35,676 bases of DNA. Origin: a virus. Position 1 is the stretch's first letter; each line of letters starts with the position of its first letter. The notes under the pieces are model-generated. The model was not told where the DNA came from, did not search any database, and saw nothing but the letters and a program-made list of their open reading frames with translations. The translations under genes and the position numbers were made by a program. Positions 2,579 to 35,676 of this stretch are shown here, in pieces. Location: the IMG/VR virus record IMGVR_UViG_3300036761_001636, positions 1 to 35,676 of that record. One strand, 5' to 3'.

Positions 2579-4906
2579 ATGCCTGCAGATAAGGCTCGTC
2601 GCGCTCTCAATGCAAGATTGAAAGGGTATACTCAACCCCCTCGTGAAGTCGCTGTCTTCATGGGGGATGGAGCTGGGGTTGTAGCAGTCCCGGGTAGATC
2701 TGGGTATATCTACGTTCGTGACATTCGAGGCAATGTTTCGATCGTCTGGAACACATCAGTCCCTAACATCGTCAATCAACCAGTCTTCGTAGCTTATCTC
2801 GACGGTCGACTGCAGGTTGTACGTGTTCGAGATGTGTTCTTTGGATCTAAGCCCACGAATGTTGGGCCTCACAATTGGACACACGAGTGGTCGGCAAGCG
2901 GTGGAGATGTTGTACGAGTCTTTGGTATGCAGATGATGCCCTGGAAGGCTGAGATTGACAGTGCAGATGCTTTCACTGTCAACATCTATCGAGCTATCTA
3001 TGATGCAAACGGGACTTGGGTCGTAGAAGGTGTCGAAGATATCGACCTCAATGCTCACATCCCTGGCACTAGCGCGAATGGTTGTTATGTTCTTCTCTCG
3101 ATCGATACGAGCGGTGTCATCAATCATACAGTGGGAAGTGATGTCGATCCTTATACTACCTTGGCAGTTACCGACATTCCAGCAATCCCGACTGACGAGA
3201 AGCCTCTGTGGGCGATTAGGTTGTACTATGGGCAGACGACTTTAAGTCAGACGCCTCAAGATAACGACTTCATCGATCTCCGAGATTCGTTGCATGCAGC
3301 TGCCGGGGTTGGGGGAGGTCCGTCTGTTGCGACTAGTGCTGAGATCGACACAGGCACGAACAACACCAAGTTTGCAAGCCCACTAGCAATCTCGGGAAGT
3401 CATAATGTCCCTCACGTCGTTCCGGGGACTGCGGGCGATGTCCTCATGTCTGACGGTACAGACTGGTATAGTGCTGCACCGGGAGCTGGGGCAGGTAAAG
3501 CAACATCCGCAGAGGTAGATACGGGAACGAATGATACTAAGTTTGCTACCCCGTTAGCAATCTCAGGCAGTCACAATGTTCCTCACGTAGTTCCAGGGAC
3601 GACTGGCAACTATATGAGATCAGATGGGACCGACTGGGTGAGTGCGGCGTTCCCCTCGATCCCCGTCAAAGCAACTAGTGCTGAGATCGACACAGGGACC
3701 GATGATGCTAAGTTCGCAACAGCATTAGCGATATCGGGAAGTCACAATGTCCCTCATGTCATCCCTGGCTCTGATGGAAATGTACTTACATCAGATGGGA
3801 CAGATTGGGTAAGTGAAGCTCCACCTGCTGGCGCTGGGCCTGCAACAGGTGCCGAAGTTGATACTGGTACGAACAACGCTAAGTTCGCTTCGCCTTTGGC
3901 TCTAGCAGATAGCCACTATGTCCCACATGCATCACCTGCTACATCGGGTAACGTTCTAGCTTCGAACGGGACAGACTGGGTAAGCACTGCTCCATCGGGA
4001 GGCACTAAGGCTACGTCCGCAGAAGTCGATACTGGGACGGATGATGTGAAGTTTGTAACTCCTCTGGCTATCTCGGGCAGCCACAACGTACCTCACGTGG
4101 TTCCCGGGACGACTGGCAATTACATGAGGTCGGATGGGACTGATTGGGTCAGTGCTGCATTCCCCTCCATCCCCGTCAAAGCAACATCCGCAGAAATAGA
4201 CACCGGTACAGACGATGCTAAGTTCGCAACAGCATTAGCGATATCGGGAAGTCACAATGTCCCTCACGTTGTCCCAGGGACCGACGGAAACGTATTAACT
4301 TCAGATGGTACTGATTGGGTCAGCGAAGCTCCCTCAGGAGGGACTAAAGCAACGTCTGCAGAAGTAGATACAGGGACGAATGATACCAAGTTCGTAACAC
4401 CTTTAGCCATCTCAGGTAGTCACAATGTACCTCACGTCGTACCAGGGACGGATGGTAATGTTCTAACTTCGGATGGTACTGATTGGGTGAGCGAAGCGCC
4501 TCCCGGTGGAGGTACGCTTCATATTGATCAAGCTGGAGGTACAGGTGATACGTATGGAGTACTTGGTGGTACCCGAAACGGCTCTAACAAACTCTTTACA
4601 GTATCTGCAGCTGCTTACAACAGCGGTACTTTGAGTGTCTATCTGAATGGGCAGCTTCTGACGCAAGGGTCTGCAGAAGACTGGGTCGAGACGACCCCAG
4701 CTTCAGGGACCTTCACACTAGATGTTGCACCCACATCTGACGACGAGATAACTGCTGTATATGGCTCCAACGGTATCAGCGGTATCATCAACGAAGCCCC
4801 GATCGATGGTACTCAATATGCACGTAAAGACGCGGGCTGGGTCACAGTCGCAGCCTCTGGTAATAGTGCCGGAAGTAAATTATACTTGTATAGTAACGTA
4901 ATCTAG
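2579..4906 (+). CDS. Repeat-containing tail fibre protein (775 aa)
   Basis: Residues 1-250 form a unique N-terminal part, probably the virion attachment end. Residues 251-646 are seven tandem repeats of 56-57 residues built on ATSAE(I/V)DTGT, KFA(S/T)PLAISGSHNVPH and SDGTDWVS. A C-terminal part follows with the LSVYLNGQLL and DDEITAVYG segments common in fibre domains, and ends with NEAPIDG..YARKDAGWV, a motif frequent at the tips of phage fibres. Repeats of this kind usually form an elongated trimeric beta shaft. The gene lies between other virion genes and is followed by a strong AGGAG site for the next. Assignment as a fibre is secure in kind; the receptor is unknown. Confidence 0.85.
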   Translation: MPADKARRALNARLKGYTQPPREVAVFMGDGAGVVAVPGRSGYIYVRDIRGNVSIVWNTSVPNIVNQPVFVAYLDGRLQVVRVRDVFFGSKPTNVGPHNWTHEWSASGGDVVRVFGMQMMPWKAEIDSADAFTVNIYRAIYDANGTWVVEGVEDIDLNAHIPGTSANGCYVLLSIDTSGVINHTVGSDVDPYTTLAVTDIPAIPTDEKPLWAIRLYYGQTTLSQTPQDNDFIDLRDSLHAAAGVGGGPSVATSAEIDTGTNNTKFASPLAISGSHNVPHVVPGTAGDVLMSDGTDWYSAAPGAGAGKATSAEVDTGTNDTKFATPLAISGSHNVPHVVPGTTGNYMRSDGTDWVSAAFPSIPVKATSAEIDTGTDDAKFATALAISGSHNVPHVIPGSDGNVLTSDGTDWVSEAPPAGAGPATGAEVDTGTNNAKFASPLALADSHYVPHASPATSGNVLASNGTDWVSTAPSGGTKATSAEVDTGTDDVKFVTPLAISGSHNVPHVVPGTTGNYMRSDGTDWVSAAFPSIPVKATSAEIDTGTDDAKFATALAISGSHNVPHVVPGTDGNVLTSDGTDWVSEAPSGGTKATSAEVDTGTNDTKFVTPLAISGSHNVPHVVPGTDGNVLTSDGTDWVSEAPPGGGTLHIDQAGGTGDTYGVLGGTRNGSNKLFTVSAAAYNSGTLSVYLNGQLLTQGSAEDWVETTPASGTFTLDVAPTSDDEITAVYGSNGISGIINEAPIDGTQYARKDAGWVTVAASGNSAGSKLYLYSNVI
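3329..4516 (+). repeat. Seven tandem 168-171-bp coding repeats in the fibre gene
   Basis: Repeat starts are near 3329, 3500, 3671, 3842, 4010, 4181 and 4349. Units 2-3 resemble units 5-6 more than their neighbours: both pairs share the NYMRSDGTDWVSAAFPSIPVK-like junction. A 53-nt stretch is identical between 3704-3756 and 4214-4266, although the flanking codons differ synonymously. This points to duplication of a two-unit block or local gene conversion. Confidence 0.9.
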
Positions 4907-9740: not shown

Positions 9741-9759
9741 TATCTCGAAGCCCCAGAGA

Positions 9760-9806
9760 GCATAGTTAGTTTGTCCCTTATGTAATAAGGGACAAACTAA
9801 CTATGC
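9760..9806. repeat. 21-bp perfect inverted repeat with 5-bp loop
   Basis: The arms 9760-9780 and 9786-9806 are exactly complementary over 21 bp around TGTAA. The stem is AT-rich, has no following T-run and sits 160 bp before the next gene. It could be a second terminator, a protein-binding cruciform or part of a replication origin; the sequence does not decide. Confidence 0.8.
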
Positions 9807-9832
9807 TATGCTTAGACTGACTTCAAGCGAAG

Positions 9833-10172: not shown

Positions 10173-11201
10173 ATGCACGACCTATTTGATGAACGTTTCT
10201 TCTCTACACGCCCAGAGTGGCACGACCTCGGAAAGATCTCCGAAGTCCCCACGACTGCAGCTGAGGCCTGGGGTCAGATGACACCCTACTCAGTTCGAAT
10301 GGCGGATCTGTTCTTGAAGCTTCAGAACGGGAAGTACGATCACTCGGGCTTTCGGGCGATTGTACGTGAACCTGTCCCCGATGATCCGATCGAACGCATC
10401 TTCGGTGTCATCGGCTCCGACTACGTCCTGATCGAGCCCCAGGAGATTTGCGAAATCTTCGACAACGCTGTCCAGACTCCAATTCAGACTTTGGGGTCTC
10501 TCGGCAAGGGCGAGACGCTGTTCATGTCAGTGCACTTACCTGATCTGAACGTGAGAGGCGACTTGGTTGAGAACTATCTGGTTCTCACTTCGCCCTACAT
10601 CGGGAATGCTTCCATCAAAACGATGGTCACTCCAGTACGCCCAGTTTGTCATAACACACTTCGCGCCGCAGCTCGGGCTGCTACTGAAGTCTATCGCGTT
10701 ACTCACGACGCCAGTGCTCGTAAGCGCCTGGCGAACTGGATGGCAGGGATGATGGGTCGCGCGAAACAGCGGACCGAGACTCTGCAGCAAGCGTTCGAGA
10801 TGTTTGCGTCCTACTCTCCTTCTGCACGCACTGTCGGGAATATGATCGAAGATGTCTACCCATACCCACCTACTCCTGGCCAGCCGGACGAGCCTGAAGT
10901 CGATCTGGGGCTCTCATCCCGTCGTCTCGAGTACTATACATCGACTGTCGAGACACTCGATCATTCTCGACAGGCTGTTCGTGAGCTCTTCGATGGTAAG
11001 GGGACTGGGCTCGAAGTCAAAGCCTGCAGCGGGACCGGTTGGGGGTTCTACAATGCGGTTGCAGAGTGGGAGAATTGGCGTCGGACTACGAACGTTCAGG
11101 CGCGGGGAGAATCTGTCTTGGTTGGGGCGCGAGGAGCAGCGATTGAACGAGCTTACTCAGTCGTCTTTGGCTATGCTACTCGGGCAGCCAAGCGCTCATG
11201 A
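10173..11201 (+). CDS. DUF932 / TIGR03299-type phage-plasmid protein (342 aa)
   Basis: The family's landmarks are visible: an N-terminal WHDLG, a central GSDYVLIEPQEICEIFD, and VTPVRPVCHNTLRAA. DUF932 proteins are widespread in phages and plasmids near replication genes; their biochemical role is unknown to me. The length is normal for the family. The ATG is preceded by AAGGAGG, and the stop overlaps the next start (ATGA at 11198), coupling it to the MT-A70 methylase. Confidence 0.8.
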   Translation: MHDLFDERFFSTRPEWHDLGKISEVPTTAAEAWGQMTPYSVRMADLFLKLQNGKYDHSGFRAIVREPVPDDPIERIFGVIGSDYVLIEPQEICEIFDNAVQTPIQTLGSLGKGETLFMSVHLPDLNVRGDLVENYLVLTSPYIGNASIKTMVTPVRPVCHNTLRAAARAATEVYRVTHDASARKRLANWMAGMMGRAKQRTETLQQAFEMFASYSPSARTVGNMIEDVYPYPPTPGQPDEPEVDLGLSSRRLEYYTSTVETLDHSRQAVRELFDGKGTGLEVKACSGTGWGFYNAVAEWENWRRTTNVQARGESVLVGARGAAIERAYSVVFGYATRAAKRS

Positions 11202-17163: not shown

Positions 17164-17236
17164 TGCGGGGTAGAGCAGCGGTCAGCTCGTCTGGCTCATA
17201 ACCAGGAGGTCAGTGGTCCGAATCCACTCCCCGCAA
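17164..17236 (+). tRNA. tRNA with anticodon CAT (Met or Ile2)
   Basis: A complete 73-nt cloverleaf: acceptor TGCGGGG/CCCCGCA, D-stem GAGC/GCTC, anticodon stem TCTGG/CCAGG with loop CTCATAA (anticodon CAT), and T-arm AGTGG/CCACT with loop TCCGAAT. The anticodon stem lacks the three G-C pairs of initiator tRNA, so this is elongator Met or a lysidine-type Ile tRNA. The CCA end is not encoded. Confidence 0.93.
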
Positions 17237-17239
17237 CTT

Positions 17240-17401: not shown

Positions 17402-18054
17402 ACTTGAATGTCAGATTTGGAACGCTCGAGGACCTGGACACAATTCAGGAGCTCTTCAACCACCCAGACATCATCGCTGGTCTCGGTGGCTTCACAATGA
17501 GAGATCAGATTCGGGACTGCATCAAAGTTCGCCCATCTCTCTGGGTAGCAGAGTTCGGCAGCAAGATCGTCGGGGCTCATATGTTCGGAGGTCGTCCACA
17601 GAGTCATATGGTCAAGCTCGGTCATGTGGGCGTTCTTCCCGAATTCCGTCGAAGGCGTGTAGAGACAACGCTATACTTCACAGCTGTTGCACAAGCTGTC
17701 TTCGAAGGTCGCCGACTGATCGAAGACACTATAGTCGGAGACAACGAAGCCCAGAAGATAGCTTTGCCCTCGATGGGATTTCGTCTTGCTGGCGAGCTTG
17801 TTCATCGAACTGCTTCGGAGAAGTCCATCTTCTTATATCAGCTCTCACTACTTTGGGATCTAGCTTGGGAGAATATTTACATGCGATGCCCTACTGGCTT
17901 CCACATTGAGCTGAAGACGAACCCCTATACTGCAGATCTCTGGGCGAAGAACATGGAGTTGTATCTGAAGAAGGAAAGCAAAGCCCTCGATCTTATCCCT
18001 ACACTTCGGGGGATGCTCGAAAGGAGCTCATATGCTACCGTCATCAGCGAGTGA
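17398..18054 (+). CDS. GNAT-family N-acetyltransferase (218 aa)
   Basis: The start at 17398 has AGGAGG seven bases upstream. Residues 1-150 have the GNAT order: FGTLEDLDTIQELF at the N-terminus, SLWVAEFGSKIVGAHMF, and VGVLPEFRRRRVETTL, the acetyl-CoA-binding motif A. The last 60 residues are an extra helical extension. The family transfers acyl groups to primary amines. It overlaps the QueF-like gene by 23 bases, so preQ1, whose side chain ends in a primary amine, is a conceivable substrate; that link is inference only. Confidence 0.75.
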   Translation: MNLNVRFGTLEDLDTIQELFNHPDIIAGLGGFTMRDQIRDCIKVRPSLWVAEFGSKIVGAHMFGGRPQSHMVKLGHVGVLPEFRRRRVETTLYFTAVAQAVFEGRRLIEDTIVGDNEAQKIALPSMGFRLAGELVHRTASEKSIFLYQLSLLWDLAWENIYMRCPTGFHIELKTNPYTADLWAKNMELYLKKESKALDLIPTLRGMLERSSYATVISE

Positions 18055-18490
18055 ACGATTTCATGCATTGGGTCAGAATGTTCGTGGTGCAACCAAGCAT
18101 CTCGAGACTTTCACGACACCCGACCATGTAGACGAGGTCGTCATGACGACTCATGAATTCACATCTCTCTGCCCTGTTACCGGGCAGCCAGACTTCGGGA
18201 CGGTCGAGATTTCGTATCGCCCAAACACCAAGTGTCTCGAGTCTAAGAGTCTGAAGCTATACTTGATGACATTTCGCGAGAAGGGAACCTTCTGTGAAGC
18301 CCTTGCGAGCGAGATTGCTCGTGATGTGCAGGAAGTTCTTGACGCGAAGTCTATTGGAGTCGTTATTACTCAGGCTCCTCGCGGTGGGGTAGGGATTCGA
18401 GCCTCGGCTTGGATCAAGGGATCTGTTCTACCCATCTCCCTCGCCGACTTCAAGATCGCTAGGGAGGAACCAGCTCTCAAGCCAGGCTGA
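18032..18490 (+). CDS. queF: QueF-like preQ0 reductase, variant (152 aa)
   Basis: SLCPVTGQPDFGTV (about residues 45-58) carries the nucleophilic Cys and the catalytic Asp of type I QueF, and ESKSLKLYL is the NADPH-binding QueF motif. The motif that normally reads FHE appears here as FCE: the His is replaced by Cys. QueF reduces the nitrile of preQ0 to the amine of preQ1. Length matches the short (type I) family. It has AAGGAG before its ATG. With the YhhQ-like transporter and DpdA-like enzyme downstream it suggests 7-deazaguanine DNA modification. The His-to-Cys change leaves the exact reaction open. Confidence 0.82.
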   Translation: MLPSSASERFHALGQNVRGATKHLETFTTPDHVDEVVMTTHEFTSLCPVTGQPDFGTVEISYRPNTKCLESKSLKLYLMTFREKGTFCEALASEIARDVQEVLDAKSIGVVITQAPRGGVGIRASAWIKGSVLPISLADFKIAREEPALKPG

Positions 18491-18543
18491 GCACCTATGG
18501 TCGTAGACAACCCATCCAAAACTACTTAAAGGAGATTACTCAA

Positions 18544-19182
18544 ATGTTGCACAAACGTTTTTCGATCTTGCTCGTCATCCTGGTCGTTCTTGGCTCGGTG
18601 GCCTTGGTGGTCTCAAACATCATCGCTGGTAAGCTTTGGGCGGCTCCCTTCGGGCTGATTCTGACTACAGCCGAGCTCCTGTTCCCGATTGTGTATATCA
18701 TCGGAGATGTCATCCCTGAAGTCTACGGTTTGCAAACAGCTCGTAGAGCTATTCTCATAGGGTTCGCTGCTAACCTGTTTGCTGTCATATTCTTCCTGAT
18801 ATGCTTGCAGCTACCCGCCCCAGGGTTCTGGACTAACCAGGAGGCCTTCAAGATAGTCTTGGGATTCACTCCTCGACTGCTAGTTGGGTCATTCATTGCC
18901 TACTTAATTGGATCGAATGTGAATGCTTGGACACTCGTCAAGATCAAGGAGCTGACAGGCCCTCGATTCCTGTGGGTTCGAACTATTGGAAGCACTATCG
19001 CTGGCGAGGGAGTAGATTCGTTCCTCTTCGCCATCATCGCGTTCACAGGAGTGATCCCCTTCTCGGCAGTGATTGCAATGTCTCTGTCGACCTGGGCATT
19101 CAAGACGTCGTATGAAGCTCTTGCGACCCCATTCACATATCTCGCAGTCAATTGGGTCAAAAAGATCGAAGCAAGTATCTAG
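18544..19182 (+). CDS. YhhQ/QrtT-type queuosine-precursor transporter (212 aa)
   Basis: About six hydrophobic segments span the protein. The conserved VSNIIAGKLW near residue 23, the FPIVYIIGDVIPEVYG strand, RLLVGSFIAYLIGSNVN and the basic C-terminus are typical of the VUT/DUF165 family (YhhQ). These inner-membrane proteins import preQ0, preQ1 or queuine. A phage copy next to QueF and DpdA would supply 7-deazaguanine base, since none of queC, queD, queE or folE is in the window. It has an AAAGGAG site and stands 53 bases after the QueF stop. Confidence 0.85.
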   Translation: MLHKRFSILLVILVVLGSVALVVSNIIAGKLWAAPFGLILTTAELLFPIVYIIGDVIPEVYGLQTARRAILIGFAANLFAVIFFLICLQLPAPGFWTNQEAFKIVLGFTPRLLVGSFIAYLIGSNVNAWTLVKIKELTGPRFLWVRTIGSTIAGEGVDSFLFAIIAFTGVIPFSAVIAMSLSTWAFKTSYEALATPFTYLAVNWVKKIEASI

Positions 19183-28369: not shown

Positions 28370-28621
28370 TTACGTGTTGTAGTGAGGGATTGTCCCTGCG
28401 ATCGTGGGGAACAACGAACAAGCAACTTCATAGGAGATTTTGTCTCCTTCAGCAGCAACTCGTTCGTCGCTCCAATCAGTCAGACCGCGATACGCTGCCC
28501 AGAAGTACTGATCGTGGACGACTGCAATGACTTTGTAGCCAAAGAAGTCGCCCGTTCGAATCTCACCTCCGTGCACAACGTAAGGATTCAACGTACCATT
28601 CTCATTCGTCTCTCGAGTCAT
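28370..28621 (-). CDS. Hypothetical protein (83 aa)
   Basis: Start chosen at 28621 with AAAGGAG upstream. The longer reading frame would translate the divergent structured element at 28640-28695 and is rejected. The protein is soluble and mixed alpha/beta, with a YKVIAVVHDQYFWAAYRG core. No family is recognised. Confidence 0.7.
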   Translation of the reverse strand: MTRETNENGTLNPYVVHGGEIRTGDFFGYKVIAVVHDQYFWAAYRGLTDWSDERVAAEGDKISYEVACSLFPTIAGTIPHYNT

Positions 28622-28639
28622 AATTCTCCTTTCATAGTT

Positions 28640-28695
28640 GGGTAGAATTACCCTGACTGCTCTCGACATCCAGTCGAGAGCAGATAGGCGTTCTA
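28640..28695 (-). repeat. Start-associated structured element, divergent copy
   Basis: It has the same architecture as the nine main copies with almost entirely different sequence. On the + coordinate axis: hairpin GGGTA/TACCC next to the ribosome binding site (28640-28653), an 11-bp stem (28657-28667 with 28673-28683), and distal TTCTA (28691-28695) complementary to TAGAA spanning the loop at 28643-28647. The distal strand contains the UAG stop of the upstream gene. Confidence 0.6.
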
Positions 28696-29100
28696 CGAGT
28701 GCATGAAGAGCATCACAACGACTTCGCCGGGTTGTGTCATCTCGATGAACTCGACATCGTTGCAAAGCTGTCCTACTTTCGTTGCCCAACGTGTTACTGT
28801 GATCAAGCCTTCGGGGAGCGACTGAAACATCTTCGTTGCCTTAACATAAGCTTCGAAGAAGTTGATTTCGAACGAGTCAAAGAGCTTCAAGATATTGACA
28901 GCTTTCTGAACTCGATCGACATGCTTGCCCGAATTGAAGATATCCGGGAACAGCTTGACCATTTGCTTCGCAGCAGTTGCCATCTCGGCGGAGATCACAG
29001 GAGCGTTGTCCTTGTGAGCGTGTTGATGCCCCTCTGTAGCCATCCCACCGCAGATGAGACATTCAGTCCCAGGAGTAGGGCGATACCAGAGATCTGTCAT
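28693..29100 (-). CDS. Hypothetical protein with N-terminal Cys/His cluster (135 aa)
   Basis: The start at 29100 follows GGTGAT four bases after the stop of the 33-aa membrane gene. CLICGGMATEGHQHAH (about residues 13-28) could hold one zinc ion. The remainder is helical with a hydrophobic C-terminal strand (EVVVMLFMHS). No family is recognised. Confidence 0.7.
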   Translation of the reverse strand: MTDLWYRPTPGTECLICGGMATEGHQHAHKDNAPVISAEMATAAKQMVKLFPDIFNSGKHVDRVQKAVNILKLFDSFEINFFEAYVKATKMFQSLPEGLITVTRWATKVGQLCNDVEFIEMTQPGEVVVMLFMHS

Positions 29101-29104
29101 AGCA

Positions 29105-29206
29105 TCACCACGCAGCTCTCGAAGCAAGGCCGATCAATACGATCAGCAGGATGACGATGGCAATCAAGTCATCCACCAGCAATGGCGTCTGAGGCTTCGA
29201 CGTCAT
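29105..29206 (-). CDS. Small single-TM membrane peptide (33 aa)
   Basis: A perfect AAGGAGGTGA site lies just upstream of the ATG at 29206. A polar start (residues 1-7) is followed by one hydrophobic helix (LLVDDLIAIVILLIVLIGLA) and a short tail SRAAW. It overlaps the end of the previous gene by 38 bases, and its TGA lies four bases before the next ATG. Too short for standard gene calls, but well supported by site and context. Confidence 0.65.
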   Translation of the reverse strand: MTSKPQTPLLVDDLIAIVILLIVLIGLASRAAW

Positions 29207-29570
29207 GTGTCACCTCCTTGTCGATCTCCTTGGCAACCTTAACAAAGTTGTCTAGGTCGTAGTTGAACCGCTTGATGAACTGAACGCGAGTCTTCGGAGA
29301 AGCGTTCGTGCTCAATCCGACCCAGCGTTTGACGTCTTTGGGAGTGAGAAGAACGTCAACCTGTTTCTCGTCTTGCACCATCGTGCGGAACGCACCATTC
29401 GAGATCTCGGTCAAGTGAAGACGGGCATAGACTTCAGGCCAGTTCTCTTTCGTGATCTCGGGTATCCCCGTCGTCATCGATCCGAAGACAAGAACCTCAC
29501 GTAAGTACGAGTCATTCGTGCTGTCGGGTAACGGGGGCACACACTTGCGTGAATCATACTGCAGGCTCAT
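29169..29570 (-). CDS. Hypothetical protein (133 aa)
   Basis: The start at 29570 has AAAAGGAG upstream, immediately after the structured element at 29586-29645. It is a soluble protein with an N-terminal coil and a helical C-terminal half (KRFNYDLDNFVKVAKEIDKE). No recognised motif. It is likely a small early protein. Confidence 0.75.
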   Translation of the reverse strand: MSLQYDSRKCVPPLPDSTNDSYLREVLVFGSMTTGIPEITKENWPEVYARLHLTEISNGAFRTMVQDEKQVDVLLTPKDVKRWVGLSTNASPKTRVQFIKRFNYDLDNFVKVAKEIDKEVTHDVEASDAIAGG

Positions 29571-29585
29571 ATTACTCTCCTTTTC

Positions 29586-29645
29586 GAGGCTGAACCGCCT
29601 CTGACCCAACCTTAACAAGTGTTAAGGTTGGGATGTGAAGGTTCA
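29586..29645 (-). repeat. Start-associated structured element, copy 1 (covariant)
   Basis: The ribosome-site hairpin has stem GAGGC/GCCTC (29586-29590 with 29597-29601) and loop TGAACC; the distal strand is GGTTCA (29640-29645). In other copies loop and partner are TGAACG and CGTTCA, so both the stem and the loop pairing have changed in a compensatory way. The palindrome arms CCCAACCTTAACA and its complement lie at 29605-29617 and 29620-29632. Confidence 0.85.
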
Positions 29646-29648
29646 GAT

Positions 29649-30119
29649 CTACCCGCACGGAAGATCAGCGATGCGTGCGAGTTCGACTCTCGCTTGATCA
29701 GCTAAGTGGTAGATGTTTTCACCAAAGTAGGTGAACGAAGCTTGTTTCAACCCGTCGAGATTATCTCGCTCAGTCATCCGCTCCCAATGCTGTTCCCCAT
29801 ACAGCTTCTCGAAGCGATAGCCACCAGGGACGAGAAGAATGCGACGACGAGCTTCGGAGGCGAGAACGAGAATCTCAGTTGGCACTAGATCGATCCCTTC
29901 GACGCCAGCGTGAATCGCATCGTGAACGATCCCGTTGACGCCTCCCGTGAGATCGTCGAAGAGATGATCTCGAATAGAGATGAGACGCATGAGAGTGCCT
30001 GGAGCAACAACGTTCGCACTCTTCTGCACCTCGACGATGATGCTCTCGAGAATCTTGTGAGTGTCCTGCATCATCTTCTGAGCTTGCTGAATCTTGTGAA
30101 GCTGACGTTTTGTGATCAT
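29649..30119 (-). CDS. Hypothetical helical protein (156 aa)
   Basis: The ATG at 30119 overlaps the stop of the upstream gene (ATGA). The N-terminal basic helix (KRQLHKIQQAQKMM) leads to an alpha-helical body. There are no cysteines of a metal site and no membrane segment. No family is recognised. Confidence 0.75.
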   Translation of the reverse strand: MITKRQLHKIQQAQKMMQDTHKILESIIVEVQKSANVVAPGTLMRLISIRDHLFDDLTGGVNGIVHDAIHAGVEGIDLVPTEILVLASEARRRILLVPGGYRFEKLYGEQHWERMTERDNLDGLKQASFTYFGENIYHLADQARVELARIADLPCG

Positions 30120-30526
30120 TCCATTGTCTCCTGATCGATGATGTACTGGAAGTCGTACTTCTGCTTCCCAGCTAAGACCATCAGACGAGCAGCTTTGATA
30201 GCTGTGTCATTGCGTGCATCAGTGTACTTCTGGGAAGAGATTCCTATTAGGACACCGAGTAGCCAGGTAACAGCGTTTGCCTGAACTGATGGGTGAAACT
30301 CGATCATTGCTTGCCCGAACTTCACGCCATCCCGAACGGTGTGGTTCATACTGTTGAAGAACTTCTCCATGAAGTAAGTGAAGTTCGATGGCGTCATCGA
30401 CCGTGCGAGCTTGTCGACATGCAAGGGCTCGTAGTTAGGATCCGGGTCACCGGTCTCCATTGTCTTGAGCGTGATCTCTCGAGCTCCCTTGCTGTAGCCA
30501 TCGAGAGTGTAGGGATTAGGTTTCAT
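30116..30526 (-). CDS. Hypothetical protein (136 aa)
   Basis: AAAAGGAG precedes the ATG, directly after a structured element. It is helical and soluble, with a central FNSMNHTVRDGVKFGQAMIE segment (shown in part) and a C-terminal KAARLMVLAGKQKYDFQ. It is coupled to the next gene by ATGA. Unknown function. Confidence 0.75.
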   Translation of the reverse strand: MKPNPYTLDGYSKGAREITLKTMETGDPDPNYEPLHVDKLARSMTPSNFTYFMEKFFNSMNHTVRDGVKFGQAMIEFHPSVQANAVTWLLGVLIGISSQKYTDARNDTAIKAARLMVLAGKQKYDFQYIIDQETME

Positions 30527-30540
30527 GAGTTTCTCCTTTT

Positions 30541-30602
30541 GGGATTGAACGATCCCTATCTGAACCTTAACAAGTGTTAAGGTTCAGACGAACGAGCGTT
30601 CA
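30541..30602 (-). repeat. Start-associated structured element, copy 2
   Basis: Hairpin GGGAT/ATCCC with loop TGAACG (30541-30556), palindrome CTGAACCTTAACA with its complement (30560-30572 and 30575-30587, loop AG), and distal CGTTCA (30597-30602). On the minus strand the upstream gene's UGA stop is the first three bases of UGAACG. Confidence 0.88.
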
Positions 30603-30884
30603 GTCAGTGTGCTTACCGTAACCGTGTGATCGAGGTGAGAAGCCTGGACTCCCTGCTCCATTCAGATCGTGACCGATCGTGGCAGCGATCTCCATCTCGG
30701 TCATGTTGGCTCTACAACCAAACGTGATAAAGCCGACGAGATCGTGAAGCCCGTCTTCTCCGTAGGCGTCCAAGTAGCGAGTGAGCCCGATGACAACGTC
30801 AACAGGATCGTTGGTCGTGCAGCGTTCGAACTCCACAACGTCTTGGAAGTCCAACCTGCCCCTCGGTGTTAGTTTCTGTTTCAT
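30600..30884 (-). CDS. Hypothetical protein (94 aa)
   Basis: Start set at 30884 with AAGGAGAG upstream; the longer frame overlaps the previous gene and lacks a site. It contains DVVEFERCTTNDPVDVVIGL and a Gly/Ser-rich C-terminus. No family is recognised. Confidence 0.7.
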   Translation of the reverse strand: MKQKLTPRGRLDFQDVVEFERCTTNDPVDVVIGLTRYLDAYGEDGLHDLVGFITFGCRANMTEMEIAATIGHDLNGAGSPGFSPRSHGYGKHTD

Positions 30885-30895
30885 CTCATCTCTCC

Positions 30896-31111
30896 TTATT
30901 CGTGCATGATAGATGGCTTGGTGATTTCGACGAAGAAGCGAACTGTCTCTTGAAGACGCGTCAGCGTCGTCCGGATGTCTTCGAGAACTTTGATTCTCTC
31001 TGTCAACCACTCGACCTGCTCTCTGTCGTCATCTGCGCATACGATGTCTCTCTTGACATCACGAATGACTTGGTTCACAACTTCAATCTGCTCTGTTAAG
31101 GTTGCGAACAT
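30896..31111 (-). CDS. Small coiled-coil protein (71 aa)
   Basis: The ATG overlaps the upstream stop by one base (TAATG at 31113-31109). The whole protein is helical with heptad-like spacing (EQIEVVNQVIRDVKRDI, VEWLTERIKVLEDIRTTL). It probably dimerises. Unknown role. Confidence 0.75.
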   Translation of the reverse strand: MFATLTEQIEVVNQVIRDVKRDIVCADDDREQVEWLTERIKVLEDIRTTLTRLQETVRFFVEITKPSIMHE

Positions 31112-31452
31112 TATCGTACCCTCCCGTGGCTATTCTGATCTAGCCCGCTGAAGTCCTGAGTGAACTCAGCATCGAATGCCTTCGTGACGAACGTTACGAT
31201 CCGATCGCTCAAGTACGCGAGTGTCCCGCGGTCGCTGTCGGACATCCTGAAGAAATCACGTTCGGCTAGGAGTCGAAGAGCATCACCTGCATCGACAAGA
31301 CCTTCGTCGTTGCAGCTTGCTTGCTCGTAGCCGATTTCGATCAACTCGGCTTTGTAGTCGTCAAAGAACTTCTTGGCGACAGCTTCGAGCTTAGCTTCGT
31401 CCATCGCGTCGTCGACGTCATCGGAATGGGGATAGCCATGTCTGCTGATCAT
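31111..31452 (-). CDS. Hypothetical acidic protein (113 aa)
   Basis: The ATG at 31452 has GGGAGG upstream and overlaps the stop of the upstream gene (ATGA). A GTG at 31467 would lie before the binding site and is rejected. The helical N-terminal half is rich in Asp/Glu, followed by LRLLAERDFFRMSDSDRG. No family is recognised. Confidence 0.72.
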   Translation of the reverse strand: MISRHGYPHSDDVDDAMDEAKLEAVAKKFFDDYKAELIEIGYEQASCNDEGLVDAGDALRLLAERDFFRMSDSDRGTLAYLSDRIVTFVTKAFDAEFTQDFSGLDQNSHGRVR

Positions 31453-31721
31453 GATGGCTCCTCCCACGACTCACCACAGTAGCCTGGGTCGAAGTCCAAC
31501 GGTGCACAGCTGGGAACGAGACCAGACTCCATGATGTAGGTCTCTTCGACCTGAACGCCGGGGTTGGCTGCGACGGCTTCTTCTTTCGAATCGTAGGCGG
31601 TGCACAGCTGACGGCTGAACTGTCCTGCGAGCACTGAGTGCTCGGGGTAGTCGCCACACTTGCACAGCCACCAGTTCGTGTGAACGAACTGGATTGACTT
31701 GTACTCACCAACTAGCTTCAT
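31449..31721 (-). CDS. Hypothetical Cys-containing protein (90 aa)
   Basis: Start at 31721 with AAAAGGAG upstream. An ORF extended upstream would be a translation of the structured element at 31736-31795 and is rejected. Features are WWLCKCGDYPEHS near residue 17 and two further cysteines. No clear metal-site pattern and no family recognised. Confidence 0.72.
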   Translation of the reverse strand: MKLVGEYKSIQFVHTNWWLCKCGDYPEHSVLAGQFSRQLCTAYDSKEEAVAANPGVQVEETYIMESGLVPSCAPLDFDPGYCGESWEEPS

Positions 31722-31735
31722 GATGTTCTCCTTTT

Positions 31736-31795
31736 GGGATTGAACGATCCCTGACTCAACCTTAACAAGTGTTAAGGTTGAGATACGAGCGTTCA
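31736..31795 (-). repeat. Start-associated structured element, copy 3
   Basis: Hairpin GGGAT/ATCCC with loop TGAACG (31736-31751), palindrome CTCAACCTTAACA with its complement (31755-31767 and 31770-31782), distal CGTTCA (31790-31795). The TAA of the upstream gene ends one base before the distal strand. Confidence 0.88.
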
Positions 31796-31796
31796 A

Positions 31797-32405
31797 TTAT
31801 TCGTACTGTGTTAGCTCAGCTTGGGCTTTGCCGAGGTCTTCCTGAAGCTTAGCAACGCGCTCGGTCAGGAGCTTTCGCGCATATGCTCGATTACTCTCAA
31901 TCTGGCGAAGCTTGTACTCGCGGTCGTCGATCTCCCGCTGAGCCTTCTCGGCTTTCTTCTGAGCGCGTTCTTCTTCAGCAGAAGGACGGCCAGCCCAGAT
32001 GCGACTCATATCGCGCAGGTCGGTCTTGAGCTGAGCGAGTGTGTAGGACTGCAGAGCAATCTTCGGATCCTGAGCGTGATCGGTCTCCCAAGTCCACTCA
32101 TTGGCGATCATCTCCTGCACTTTCTCGGGATATGCCATGGCACTCTTGACCCAGAAGATCATTCGATCGCCACAGCAGTCGAGCAGGTTCGGGCTCGAGA
32201 AGCCGTACAGGATGCGCGGGTAGAAGTTGTGCGTGCCGAGGGCTTCACCAGGCTTTGCAACGCTGGCGACTGCATCACACGGCTGCTTCCACGCATCGTA
32301 GGGCTCAGCGTTCTCCCAGTTGCCGTCGCTGAACTGTCCCTTGAACTCGCACTCGTAGAGTACGACCTGGGCGATGTTGCGAAACGTTACTCTCAGATTA
32401 GTCAT
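31797..32405 (-). CDS. Hypothetical protein with C-terminal coiled coil (202 aa)
   Basis: The N-terminal 130 residues are globular (VVLYECEFKGQFSDGNWENAE, shown in part; NLLDCCGDRMIFWVK). Residues 140-200 form a long Lys/Glu/Gln-rich coiled coil (EEERAQKKAEKAQREIDD). AAAAGGAG and an element lie upstream. The opposite strand has a 327-codon open frame that I regard as a shadow. No family is recognised. Confidence 0.8.
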   Translation of the reverse strand: MTNLRVTFRNIAQVVLYECEFKGQFSDGNWENAEPYDAWKQPCDAVASVAKPGEALGTHNFYPRILYGFSSPNLLDCCGDRMIFWVKSAMAYPEKVQEMIANEWTWETDHAQDPKIALQSYTLAQLKTDLRDMSRIWAGRPSAEEERAQKKAEKAQREIDDREYKLRQIESNRAYARKLLTERVAKLQEDLGKAQAELTQYE

Positions 32406-32420
32406 GTTGCATCTCCTTTT

Positions 32421-32477
32421 GGGTTGAACGACCCTGACCCAACCTTAGCGAATGTTAAGGTTGGGATGTGTAGTTCA
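32421..32477 (-). repeat. Start-associated structured element, copy 4 (degenerate palindrome)
   Basis: The ribosome-site hairpin has a 4-bp stem GGGT/ACCC (32421-32434) and the usual TGAACG loop. The palindrome keeps ten pairs (CCCAACCTTA with TAAGGTTGGG) but its centre is mismatched. Distal GTTCA (32473-32477) contains the UGA stop of the upstream gene when read on the minus strand. Confidence 0.8.
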
Positions 32478-32765
32478 ATCGTAGTAGGCGTAACTGATCC
32501 CGCAGCCGTGCAATCTCTTGTTGCGGGTGCGTCTGGCGAAGGTCAGCGTGCCTACTCGAGTCTCGGCTCGCTTGATAGCAGCATCACCATCAGCGATGTC
32601 GAACTCTTCAGAGTCCCACTTGATGGCACCTGTCTCGTCGTCTTCGTAGCAGATGCAATAACTTCGATCCATGAGATCATTGCCACCGCTGACGACTTCG
32701 ATGTGTGCTGTCTGACCGTTGCGACGTGCTCTCCAGTCGGAGGGAATCAAGCTTGTGCGTGGCAT
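32475..32765 (-). CDS. Hypothetical protein (96 aa)
   Basis: Start set at 32765: GAGGTGAT precedes the ATG, four bases after the stop of the 52-aa gene, suggesting coupling. The longer in-frame reading runs antisense through that gene's coding sequence and is rejected. It contains YCICYEDDETGAIKWDSEEF and a basic C-terminal segment (FARRTRNKRLHGCG). No family is recognised. Confidence 0.7.
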   Translation of the reverse strand: MPRTSLIPSDWRARRNGQTAHIEVVSGGNDLMDRSYCICYEDDETGAIKWDSEEFDIADGDAAIKRAETRVGTLTFARRTRNKRLHGCGISYAYYD

Positions 32766-32769
32766 GTCA

Positions 32770-32928
32770 TCACCTCGCATCAACCAAGTTGCCCGAAATG
32801 CTGAACCGGCGAGCCTGAAGCCAGTCGTTGAACTCGGCGAGTGTTTTCCACATCGAGATCTCGACGCCATCGCCGAAGTACTCTACGTGCACCATGTCGC
32901 CTTTGAACGTGAGCTGATACCTTAACAT
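32770..32928 (-). CDS. Small hypothetical protein (52 aa)
   Basis: Start at 32928 with AAGGAGAAC upstream, following an element. It is small and beta-rich (RYQLTFKGDMVHVEYFGDGV) with a helical tail. It is below usual gene-finder length, but site and context are good. Confidence 0.7.
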   Translation of the reverse strand: MLRYQLTFKGDMVHVEYFGDGVEISMWKTLAEFNDWLQARRFSISGNLVDAR

Positions 32929-32943
32929 ATTGTTCTCCTTGTT

Positions 32944-33003
32944 GGGATTGAACGATCCCTGACTCAACCTTAACAAGTGTTAAGGTTGAGATACGAGCGT
33001 TCA
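32944..33003 (-). repeat. Start-associated structured element, copy 5
   Basis: Hairpin GGGAT/ATCCC with loop TGAACG (32944-32959), palindrome CTCAACCTTAACA and complement (32963-32975 and 32978-32990), distal CGTTCA (32998-33003). It starts one base after the upstream TAA. Confidence 0.88.
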
Positions 33004-33004
33004 A

Positions 33005-33250
33005 TTAGTGGCTCATGTAGCCCGAGCCGACCTGAATCGGATAGTGGCTGCACCCATCGGGCTCAGCTATCTGAACGAGCTCATGCGATTCGAAGTGCTC
33101 ACCCAAGAACTCTTCGAGCTCGCCCCGATTCCACATCTCGCGAATCTCGTCGACCGTCTTGACGTCTTCGCCCTTGTTGACGAGCTCGTCTGCGATTGCT
33201 TCGAAATCCAAGTCGACCGTAATGTGAAGCTGAAAGCCTAAGACTGCCAT
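33005..33250 (-). CDS. Hypothetical acidic protein (81 aa)
   Basis: Start at 33250 with AAAAGGAG upstream. The N-terminal strand GFQLHITVDL is followed by acidic helices (DFEAIADELVNKGEDV; EELEEFLGEHF-like). No family is recognised. Confidence 0.72.
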   Translation of the reverse strand: MAVLGFQLHITVDLDFEAIADELVNKGEDVKTVDEIREMWNRGELEEFLGEHFESHELVQIAEPDGCSHYPIQVGSGYMSH

Positions 33251-33265
33251 TGTGAATCTCCTTTT

Positions 33266-33325
33266 GGGATTGAACGATCCCTGACTCAACCTTAACACTT
33301 GTTAAGGTTGAGATACGAGCGTTCA
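33266..33325 (-). repeat. Start-associated structured element, copy 6
   Basis: Same as copy 3 except that the palindrome loop is CT rather than AG (33298-33299). Arms at 33285-33297 and 33300-33312; distal CGTTCA (33320-33325) holds the UGA stop of the upstream gene. Confidence 0.88.
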
Positions 33326-34141
33326 GTCTGAAAGCTGCTTGTTACGACCGGTCACTGCTTTCTGACCGATGTGGAGCGTAGCGCCTACTTCTGAGCCGGA
33401 ATGATACCCAGCTACGTTGAAAGCGTTGTCGCCGAAGCTGATGGTGCGAAAGCCCTTCGAGTGCTCCAACCACTTGGCTGCGAGATTCTCATCGTAGAGC
33501 ACGAGCGCCGATTCGATCTTCTCGGTGCGCTCCTGCTCCTGGTCGATTAGTGAATTCTCGATCGTGCGGAGGCAGCCCTTCAACCAGGATGCCCGCCAAA
33601 CGTTGGGGTGGTCTTCGCCGAGCCCGCTGATGCGATAGGCGCTAGCTACTCCGTAGCCACTGCAGAGGATCTTGCAATACTCGCCAGTCGCTACCATCGC
33701 CATCACAGTGAGCTTGTTGAGCCACTCGACGAAGAGCTGCGAAGCTACTTCTGCGTTGCTCTCCTTGCCATAGAAGCCAATCGTTTTGCCCCACGTCCGT
33801 TCGTAGCCGTAGGCGGTCTTCATCGGTGTGTCGCTTTCTGAGTGCTTGGCGGTGCTGAAGTGCTTGGTGTGCGTGATGCGACCGATGATGCGGGCTAAGT
33901 GCCAGTGCCACTGCTTGATGACGCCGAACATCGCGTCCGCATTTCGTGTTCCAAACGCTTCGTCGATAACGACGTTATTCGCAGCATGTACTTCGTCCAT
34001 GCCGATGGAATACTTGTCCATCAGTCGTTGCATCGCTGCGGAGGCATTCGCCATCTCGCCTTCGAAGGCTCCCGAGTCGGGATTGGTGATCTCCATCAGC
34101 TTTCGAATCTGATCGATGATCTTGGAACGATTAGGTGTCAT
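33323..34141 (-). CDS. DUF2786-domain protein (272 aa)
   Basis: Start at 34141 with AAGGAGAG upstream; a longer in-frame reading would translate non-coding hairpins and a neighbour and is rejected. Residues 5-55 match DUF2786 (KIIDQIRKLMEIT, AAMQRLMDKYSIGMDEV), a small domain found with predicted nucleases or peptidases in phages and bacteria. The middle is aromatic and helical (IKQWHWHLARIIGRITH). The function of the family is not known to me. It is the largest gene of the minus-strand block. Confidence 0.8.
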   Translation of the reverse strand: MTPNRSKIIDQIRKLMEITNPDSGAFEGEMANASAAMQRLMDKYSIGMDEVHAANNVVIDEAFGTRNADAMFGVIKQWHWHLARIIGRITHTKHFSTAKHSESDTPMKTAYGYERTWGKTIGFYGKESNAEVASQLFVEWLNKLTVMAMVATGEYCKILCSGYGVASAYRISGLGEDHPNVWRASWLKGCLRTIENSLIDQEQERTEKIESALVLYDENLAAKWLEHSKGFRTISFGDNAFNVAGYHSGSEVGATLHIGQKAVTGRNKQLSD

Positions 34142-34150
34142 TGGTGCTCT

Positions 34151-34254
34151 CCTTAACAAACGTGAATGATTAGCCGAATTGCTAACCTTAACAAAGCGCT
34201 CAAAGACTGGATCCTTGAGACGCTTTGTTAAGGTGGGCTCCTTCACAGGAGCCC
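34151..34254 (-). repeat. Split variant of the start-associated element
   Basis: Half-sites CCTTAACA and TGTTAAGG are kept but separated: stem 34185-34198 with 34221-34234 (14 bp), extended by CTCAA/TTGAG. Next to the ribosome binding site lies TTAGC/GCTAA (34170-34185). On the far side a 7-bp hairpin GGGCTCC/GGAGCCC (34235-34254) has loop TTCACA, complementary in five bases to GTGAA at 34162-34166. Confidence 0.6.
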
Positions 34255-34262
34255 ATCTTGAC

Positions 34263-34508
34263 CTAGCGACCCATCTTCGTGTCGAGCGAAGCGACGTAGT
34301 GGCCTTGCCCTGAGCCCCAGTGGTTCCATCGCACTTCGCAATGCGTGAGACCGGAGACCGTGTCGGCAAGCTTGGCAGCGAGCTTGATGGCGTCGTCGTA
34401 ATGCTCGACATCGAACGACCGAGTGAAGAGCACTGGAAGCATTTCCCAGGGCAACCGATCGGACGGGTTCTGCACTTGCACTTTGAATTCGAACGATTCG
34501 TGTAGCAT
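34263..34508 (-). CDS. Hypothetical protein (81 aa)
   Basis: AAGGAG precedes the ATG at 34508, directly after an element. It is a small alpha/beta protein (HESFEFKVQVQNPS, DDAIKLAAKLADTVSG, HCEVRWNHWGSGQGHY). No family is recognised. Confidence 0.72.
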   Translation of the reverse strand: MLHESFEFKVQVQNPSDRLPWEMLPVLFTRSFDVEHYDDAIKLAAKLADTVSGLTHCEVRWNHWGSGQGHYVASLDTKMGR

Positions 34509-34521
34509 TTTGTTCTCCTTC

Positions 34522-34581
34522 GGGATTGAACGATCCCTGACCCAACCTTAACAAATGTTAAGGTTGGGATGTGAGCGTTCA
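34522..34581 (-). repeat. Start-associated structured element, copy 7
   Basis: Hairpin GGGAT/ATCCC (34522-34537), palindrome CCCAACCTTAACA with complement (34541-34553 and 34556-34568, loop AA), distal CGTTCA (34576-34581). One base separates it from the upstream TAG. Confidence 0.88.
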
Positions 34582-34582
34582 A

Positions 34583-34903
34583 CTACGAATTGTAGTAGCC
34601 TGCATCAACGACGAGCTTGGCGAACTCCGTGGCTGCTTCGGCGAAGTTACGGTAGTGCTCCGAATTCGCACCACCATCTTCACTCACTTCAAAGTGAGCG
34701 TAGCATTCCACATACGTAAGCTCGACGCCTGCGTGCTCGATGCCATCCGCTTCATTGGTGTCGAGGTCGTTCGTGCAGACGTCACTCATATTGTGCTTCA
34801 CAATCTCAGCTGCGATGTTGGCGACGAGATTGGCTTTCGTCTGAGCACGCACGATGAAGGCTTGCCTGCTGTCGAAATTGTTGAACAGAATGGTTGTAAG
34901 CAT
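34583..34903 (-). CDS. Hypothetical acidic protein (106 aa)
   Basis: AAAGGAG lies before the ATG at 34903. The protein is acidic (pattern DLDTNEADGIEHAGVELT) with an N-terminal strand TTILFNNFDSRQAFIVRA and a C-terminal helix. No motif is recognised. Confidence 0.72.
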   Translation of the reverse strand: MLTTILFNNFDSRQAFIVRAQTKANLVANIAAEIVKHNMSDVCTNDLDTNEADGIEHAGVELTYVECYAHFEVSEDGGANSEHYRNFAEAATEFAKLVVDAGYYNS

Positions 34904-34916
34904 GTTGCTCTCCTTT

Positions 34917-34978
34917 GGGATTGAACGATCCCTATTTGAACCTTAACAAGTGTTAAGGTTCAAACGAACGAGCGTTCA
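34917..34978 (-). repeat. Start-associated structured element, copy 8
   Basis: Hairpin GGGAT/ATCCC (34917-34932), palindrome TTGAACCTTAACA with complement (34936-34948 and 34951-34963), distal CGTTCA (34973-34978) containing the UGA stop of the upstream gene. Outer palindrome pairs differ from copies 3, 5 and 6 at three positions, all compensated. Confidence 0.88.
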
Positions 34979-35236
34979 ATAGCTCCGAACGTAACCAGGT
35001 ATCACGATGAGTCGCATCCTCGGCGTCCAGATGGAGCTCCAACCATCGGCGTACAGCACGACGTCGCCATGCTTGATGATATCCAAGCTGAGTAGCCGGT
35101 TCATGCTGCTGATTGTGGGCTTGTGATAATTGTTAAGGTGCCCGTGCTTCATGCTCTCATCGCGTCGATCGATCATGACGCTGTGATTGCCCTTTCGCAT
35201 GATGATGTGAACGTAGATTGCCTTGCTTTGTGCCAT
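34976..35236 (-). CDS. Hypothetical basic protein (86 aa)
   Basis: AAAGGAG precedes the ATG at 35236. The protein is basic and beta-rich (KAIYVHIIMRKGNHSVMIDR, GDVVLYADGWSSIW). No family is recognised. Confidence 0.72.
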   Translation of the reverse strand: MAQSKAIYVHIIMRKGNHSVMIDRRDESMKHGHLNNYHKPTISSMNRLLSLDIIKHGDVVLYADGWSSIWTPRMRLIVIPGYVRSY

Positions 35237-35249
35237 TTGATTCTCCTTT

Positions 35250-35311
35250 GGGATTGAACGATCCCTATTTGAACCTTAACAAGTGTTAAGGTTCAAACGA
35301 ACGAGCGTTCA
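35250..35311 (-). repeat. Start-associated structured element, copy 9
   Basis: Hairpin GGGAT/ATCCC (35250-35265), 14-bp palindrome arms (35268-35281 and 35284-35297), distal CGTTCA (35306-35311), three bases after the upstream TAG. Nearly identical to copy 8. Confidence 0.88.
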
Positions 35312-35314
35312 AAC

Positions 35315-35676
35315 CTACCCGCGACCCCAACCAATCGCACTAGCGACGATGCCTGGTAAGTAGCCGATCTGATTGCCTTCCACCAGGTACACTACTTCCA
35401 GCACGTTGTCAGCTTCGTTCGACTCCTGCATCGCGATCCAGCCGTCACGAAGCTCCTTGATCTCGGCTTCGCGTTTCTCGGGGTCTTCGATCTGACGGGC
35501 TTCGTAAAGCGCATCTTCGTACTCGCGCTCTTCGTCGTCAGATGGGGCATTCGGGTTGACGACTTCAACTTTGTCGATGCTGTACTCGAATGGCCAGTTT
35601 GGCTGCGCTGCGAACCGAACTTCCAGGTTGTCATCGAGCCCTTCCAACATGTCGCGTAAATCTGAAACTGTGAGTG
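35315..35676 (-). CDS. Conserved small phage protein, 5' partial
   Basis: The frame stays open past the ATG at 35650 to the window edge, reading LTVSDLRDMLEGLDDN, so the true start lies outside. This opening, with EVRFAAQPNWPFEYSI, is a recurrent sequence in small phage proteins of unknown function. The middle is highly acidic and helical; the end is IGYLPGIVASAIGWGRG. Uncertain role. Confidence 0.75.
   Translation of the reverse strand, partial: LTVSDLRDMLEGLDDNLEVRFAAQPNWPFEYSIDKVEVVNPNAPSDDEEREYEDALYEARQIEDPEKREAEIKELRDGWIAMQESNEADNVLEVVYLVEGNQIGYLPGIVASAIGWGRG

Follow-up and report, generated by a model that had tools for sequence, protein, structure and literature searches.

Competing RNA folds in a repeated intergenic element of an uncultured phage operon

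Repeated sequences near gene starts are known from cluster K mycobacteriophages, in which start-associated sequences (SAS) and extended start-associated sequences (ESAS) occur, mostly in one orientation, in gaps of >50 bp before the starts of non-structural genes (PMC3203893). SAS is a 13-bp sequence, GGGATAGGAGCCC, that lies at the start codon and includes the Shine-Dalgarno sequence (SD), and a GGG..CCC motif at the start is preceded by inverted repeats (PMC3203893). The arms of ESAS were judged by the authors not to support RNA pairing, and DNA binding was favoured (PMC3203893). Here we examined a repeated intergenic element in IMG/VR record IMGVR_UViG_3300036761_001636 (positions 1 to 35,676, below the window), a 35.7-kb contig of an uncultured tailed phage with 51% G+C. 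The element resembles SAS/ESAS in location and repetition, but differs in that its arms pair with compensatory changes. The sequence is also distinct, as the original prediction had supposed when it noted the likeness; a search of the window for GGGATAGGAGCCC gave a single match with two mismatches at 10908, away from the elements, where 0.48 were expected.

Several other systems are comparable. RNase III sites of phages such as T7 split mRNAs, and terminal hairpins protect mRNA. Like our element, T7-type RNase III signals are irregular hairpins of ~60 nt in the gaps of polycistronic mRNA (early mRNA in T7), and the ends made by a cut would carry hairpins. The element differs in having an alternative hairpin (H2) by the SD and a repeated, near-constant sequence, and its cleavage is a prediction. 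In T4-type phages, Arbiol et al. reportedly described in 2010 mobile regulatory cassettes (PeSL), stem-loops repeated in gene gaps together with an early promoter. The repeated stem-loops are shared, whereas no promoter-like site is present at the elements studied here. Structured RNA near phage ribosome binding sites (RBSs) is represented by the T4 gene 32 pseudoknot and the intercistronic structures of T4 genes 25 and 38, which serve single genes and are either bound by gp32 or lie between SD and AUG (PMC3014915). Unlike our element, these are not repeated through an operon. We rate the element as one of the intergenic structured elements of phage operons, with a sequence that falls in no Rfam family.

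Small genes, most of them wanting a family match, form an operon on the minus strand at the right end of the window. Within 28370-35650, each gap of at least 69 nt carries an element, one 68-nt gap carries a small open reading frame and no element, and the remaining gene junctions are of 11 nt or less. The prediction that elements occur wherever genes neither overlap nor nearly touch is thus borne out. We distinguish two classes, class A in gaps of 69-78 nt and class B in one gap of 121 nt (read along the minus strand). Nine class A copies of 57-62 nt, each where it had been predicted, and one divergent copy are present in the window, all on the minus strand; when the divergent copy and those of relatives are included, the length is 56-62 nt. 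A sequence-blind descriptor (a 5-bp stem with a 6-nt loop, the complement of the loop 25-75 nt upstream, and an SD downstream) matched eight times on the minus strand and not at all on the plus strand, with a mean of 0.2 in shuffled sequence. Class A copies folded with z-scores of -5.0 to -7.9, and the class B copy of the window with -9.8.

A class A element consists, in order, of P0 (UGAACG), a spacer of 6-9 nt, the hairpin H1 (11-14 bp), 2-3 nt, and the hairpin H2 (GGGAU-CGUUCA-AUCCC), followed after 2-4 nt (9 nt in the divergent copy at 28640) by the SD, in most copies AGGAG. Measured from the end of the stop codon upstream, P0 begins at -3, +1 or +3 nt in the copies of the window and at up to +7 nt in a relative described below, G002. 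The first three bases of P0 double as that stop codon in five copies of the window. The element is linked in position to the upstream stop as tightly as to the downstream start, which corrects its description as start-associated. A copy of a second relative (L026:1727, in G001) follows a stop codon and has no SD close by.

Relatives were drawn from scans of 2.9 million viral contigs, and three were found. G001 (L010/L026/L022) is almost the phage of the window itself and covers ~2 kb more on the upstream side of the operon, G003 (L018/L023), a close relative, has most proteins 74-100% identical, and G002 (L015/L021/L024/L027, 53.6 kb) is syntenic with protein identities mostly of 55-78%. We aligned eight gap-free copies of 60 nt and evaluated covariation by permutation counts (500 shuffles). 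Both-sided changes were found in 4/6 pairs of P0 with the H2 loop, 5/13 of H1 and 4/5 of H2. Pairing was kept in 98.4% of the cells, and the covariation score (0.354, against 0.136 in shuffled alignments) was reached by 0/500 shuffles and was destroyed when the partners were slid by 1-3 columns. The strongest single compensation was that of L026:1727, with P0 UAGAGC and loop GCUCUA; others were UGAACC/GGUUCA in P0 and GGGAC/GUCCC, GAGGC/GCCUC and GGUGC/GCACC in H2. As the copies are related and not independent, these counts correspond to at least two events in P0 and four in H2, with H1 replaced as a whole three times. The replacements are those of G002 (L027:9275, 9928 and 11687), in which P0 and H2 are kept and H1 is an unrelated hairpin of like length. 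A covariance model trained without these three copies recovered them with E values of 1.4e-8, 3e-6 and 5e-6. Taking into account the compensatory changes in all three helices and the exchange of H1 while the rest is kept, comparison of the sequences indicates that the element is an RNA structure with P0, H1 and H2 as conserved helices.

How these helices are combined was then considered. The original prediction was a pseudoknot, in which the loop CGUUCA pairs with the upstream UGAACG around the long hairpin. The pairing itself is real (4/6 compensatory pairs, 0/500 shuffles), and the P0 hexamer and a complete H2 are compatible and both covary, that is, both helices of an H-type pseudoknot show compensatory change. 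Their simultaneous formation, on the other hand, is putative. P0 usually runs on for 1-3 pairs into the 3' strand of H2; position -1 pairs with +1 in 13/14 register-matched copies (U-A, C-G, G-C, U-G), against a shuffled mean of 9.3 (P~0.002). In addition, a nested, non-pseudoknotted rod containing P0 is the minimum free energy (MFE) structure in 18/18 copies, 2.6-12 kcal/mol below H1+H2, as calculated with ViennaRNA, which scores nested folds only and not pseudoknots. The rod is an irregular hairpin of ~60 nt with a lower stem of 6-9 bp, an internal loop and an upper stem of 11-14 bp. Both-sided changes occur in 8/10 pairs of its lower stem and 5/13 of H1, and its covariation (0.384 against 0.146 shuffled, 0/500) is gone at slides of 1-3 columns. 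The rod and H2 are mutually exclusive. H2 alone, with 4/5 pairs changed and its covariation reached by 0/500 shuffles, includes positions unexplained by the rod. Since the rod covaries as a whole and H2 covaries where the rod gives no explanation, both folds appear to be under selection. Two-state refolding fits at least as well as a pseudoknot, and the element is either a dynamic pseudoknot or a pair of alternating folds.

The individual copies illustrate these features. At 35250-35311 (62 nt, minus strand, as are all copies below), P0 is UGAACG, H1 is the UUUGAACCUUAACA hairpin and H2 is GGGAU-CGUUCA-AUCCC, and the element lies 3 nt past the stop UAG. The first three bases of the copy at 34917-34978 are the stop codon UGA of gene 34976-35236, and the UGA of UGAACG at 33266-33325 is likewise that of gene 33323-34141; the stop codon also lies within P0 at 30541-30602. 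H1 is CCCAACCUUAACA at 34522-34581 (60 nt). Further copies lie at 32944-33003 and 31736-31795 (folding z -7.2). The loop and its partner were said to be CGUUCA and UGAACG, which is usual and not constant. At 29586-29645 a compensated UGAACC faces the loop GGUUCA, H2 being GAGGC/GCCUC (GGGAC/GUCCC at this locus in G001 and G003). The degenerate copy at 32421-32477 has UGAACU, an H2 of GGGU-CGUUCA-ACCC and two mismatches in H1, and 5/6 of its P0/loop pairs are formed. In the divergent copy at 28640-28695, which had been recognized as such, the pairing is shifted (UAGAA/UUCUA, as UUCU(A)/(U)AGAA), H2 is GGGU/ACCC, the stop UAG lies within P0, and H1 is CUGCUCUCGAC, which does not contain the octamer described below. 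The gene upstream of this copy (28693-29100) differs in G001 and G003 (39% identity), and both retain the element with its downstream gene.

What had been described as a split copy, at 34172-34255 (minus strand; folding z -9.8), proved to be a distinct class B element of three abutting hairpins, H0 (GGGCUCC..), H1 (23 bp with one bulge and octamers at its base) and H3 (UUAGC-AAUUCG-GCUAA), with the SD UUAAGGAG next, at 34151. Of the eight class B copies known to us, four are from G002 and three from G001 only, and the remaining one is that of the window, which G001 shares. They consist of H0, H1 and H3, followed by an SD. H1 has 16-24 bp and usually bears the octamer at its base; the hexaloop of H3 is AAUUCG (AUUUCG or CAUUCA in two copies) on a variable stem. 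A pairing partner for the hexaloop, sought by eye, was not found. Gene 33323-34141 is preceded by class B, and its 70%-identical relative in G002 by class A, and the two classes therefore look interchangeable. Two leader hairpins with the same hexaloop (GC-AAUUCG-GC) and different stems stand shortly before start codons in a further genome, G004 (L056:14129 and 15861; also L052). Class B-like patterns in L051 and L053 lacked the three-hairpin arrangement.

Outside the three relatives, the element was not encountered. Neither the operon nor one element matched any of 50,697 phage records by blastn. Rfam 15 at the gathering threshold returned only a tRNA at 17164, and no family or self-cleaving ribozyme for the element; permissive Rfam scans gave only sub-threshold matches to unrelated families. 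Among viral contigs, a degenerate pattern matched G001-G003. Its three further hits there, which lack the element fold, and 15 stretches of genome contigs, none with the H1-H2 arrangement, were taken as chance. The element was not found in L028 (the contig of a 33%-identical homologue), L029 or L031, distant contigs whose emptiness says little.

The operon also carries an octamer, CCTTAACA (gene sense TGTTAAGG), which occurs 25 times in the window, all within 28839-35291, against 0.64 expected. Not all of these lie in the elements, and six are isolated single sites. One overlaps the SD of gene 33323-34141 (34151-34158, plus strand), and five are within genes, at 32920-32927 (plus; overlapping the start codon of 32770-32928), 31094-31101 (minus; early part of 30896-31111), 29237-29244 (plus; within 29169-29570), 28839-28846 (plus; within 28693-29100) and 35131-35138 (minus; within 34976-35236). 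Nor is the H1 core CCUUAACA, predicted as a conserved part of the RNA, needed there, as it is missing from 3/5 class A copies of G002 (L027:9275, 9928 and 11687). All 32 octamer copies of G002 lie within 3.5 kb, upstream of the operon and at its start, and L015:5000-6830, upstream of the operon, holds 43 CTTAAC/GTTAAG sites; those on the same strand are spaced by exactly 9 bp in 21 cases, and the array resembles iterons or operators. Taking into account the isolated sites in genes and the 9-bp arrays, the octamer is probably a separate DNA-binding site that was taken up into many H1 hairpins, and its distribution fits a candidate stoperator of the cluster A type, in which dispersed sites are bound by the phage repressor. 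L058, L059, L061 and L063, contigs whose proteins are not similar to those of this phage, also contain many TGTTAAGGTTAAC sites. These often have a GC-rich hairpin with a T run on one side and a promoter-like sequence on the other, ahead of genes.

We propose, with a probability of roughly 0.4, that the elements are cis-acting structures of the polycistronic mRNA with two exclusive folds, of which the rod is cut in an RNase III-like manner. A host RNase III-type enzyme would cut the rod between H1 and the 3' strand of P0. This would leave H1 as the 3' end of the upstream mRNA, close after the stop codon, and free the downstream strand to refold to H2, which would stand as a hairpin at the new 5' end immediately ahead of the SD, so that every gene's message would be protected at both ends. 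Class B may do likewise with its three dedicated hairpins (H0, the 16-24-bp H1 and H3). Such processing would account for the retention of all three helices, for an H1 of free sequence and held length, for the replacement of class A by class B, and for L026:1727, which follows a stop without a near SD and speaks for a role at boundaries more than for one at starts alone. An irregular hairpin of about two helical turns, as expected of an RNase III signal in a gene gap, was found in each case (rod, 18/18; class B H1, 16-24 bp). Several points weigh against this proposal. No RNase III was found among the scanned genes, H1 alone is short for this enzyme, the internal loop of the rod is not conserved like a known site, and cleavage of the rod is itself a prediction. 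The compensatory events are few and the copies come from three related phage types; two further pairs between the spacer and the 5' strand of H2 (P0b) are weakly supported (P~0.04), and P0 (6 bp) and H2 (5 bp) could coexist as a pseudoknot, beyond ViennaRNA scoring.

The main rival, which we consider somewhat unlikely, is a translational pseudoknot, in which P0, H1 and H2 would isolate the RBS from upstream RNA or bring the stop near the SD, enabling (re-)initiation across a gap of 70 nt, with P0 opened by a ribosome halting at the upstream stop codon. The covarying, compatible P0 and H2, the stop codon within P0 or 1-7 nt before it, and the distance of mostly 2-4 nt between H2 and AGGAG agree with this, and initiation-aiding intercistronic folds are known for T4 genes 25 and 38 (PMC3014915). 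However, the SD is free in all predicted folds and no clear control results, P0 runs into the H2 stem, the rod is the MFE structure, and one copy has no SD. The boundary could also act as an RNA switch, in which the 3' strand forms the rod with its upstream partner or folds on itself into H2 at the SD, and a ribosome stopping at the stop codon in or next to P0, or rod cleavage, sets the state, so that the boundary would read translation of the upstream gene; we regard this as doubtful. Rather improbable, in our estimate, is a binding platform, on which a phage RNA-binding protein recognizing H2, the hexaloop or the rod would coordinate the operon, in the manner of T4 gp32 or gp43 operators repeated before many genes. 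The near-constant 3' part of ten copies, the mostly constant AAUUCG of class B on a varying stem and the precedent of the T4 gene 32 pseudoknot (PMC3014915) are in line with such recognition, but the loop changes along with its partner (UAGAGC/GCUCUA), the sequence of H1 is interchangeable, and a family scan of the operon genes identified no candidate protein.

An operator or stoperator array, whose palindromes would bind a repressor or replication protein with the RNA fold as a by-product, could account for the strong over-representation of the octamer, its single sites inside genes, the CTTAAC/GTTAAG array of G002 and the TGTTAAGGTTAAC sites beside terminator-like hairpins in unrelated phage contigs. 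It explains the octamer only; P0, H2 and those H1 hairpins that lack the octamer covary or are retained in its absence, and an operator does not need compensated changes between distant arms. We consider it improbable as the whole explanation, and the octamer as a DNA site may be an added layer. Promoter function had also been raised as the alternative to RNA. Promoter-like sites of the consensus type scanned numbered two in 7.3 kb (shuffled mean 4.5), neither of them at an element, and a reading of TTGAAC..TTAACA as a promoter was rejected because of variable spacing and no consensus match at any element. Intrinsic terminators (GC-rich hairpin plus T run) were absent from class A, the region containing five against a shuffled mean of 5.8; one of the five lies inside class B H1. 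Least probable, we believe, is a mobile or recombination-prone cassette that spreads as a repeat and does no more than promote gene shuffling. Near-identical copies in one genome, and the retention at 28640 of the element and downstream gene beside a differing upstream gene in G001 and G003, would suit a cassette, while the compensatory changes, the unvarying length and the exact fit between stop and SD imply that structure is selected.

Some features elsewhere in the window were also noted. A tRNA-Met (CAT) gene at 17164-17237 shares ~92% identity with a tRNA of large Vibrio phages. At 18032-19182, a QueF/GTP-cyclohydrolase-like gene adjoins a Vut_1-family transporter gene, which suggests 7-deazaguanine (queuosine-type) metabolism or DNA modification. 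Long imperfect direct repeats (3325-4491), spaced by 171 and 339 bp, lie within a 775-aa gene (2579-4906) that weakly matches tail fibre families. A perfect 23-bp inverted repeat, AGCATAGTTAGTTTG.../...CAAACTAACTATGCT, is present at 9759-9807, and in the relative (L029:3430-3479) the outer arms are kept and the inner arms are altered together.

Start-associated repeats of phages have been known for years without a mechanism, and here compensatory change establishes an RNA structure from sequence alone, whose competing folds are directly testable. The laying of a probable DNA-binding octamer over an RNA hairpin is unusual in itself. If the processing model is true, the element would be a compact module for operon building, by which polycistronic RNA becomes a set of messages each with its own protection.

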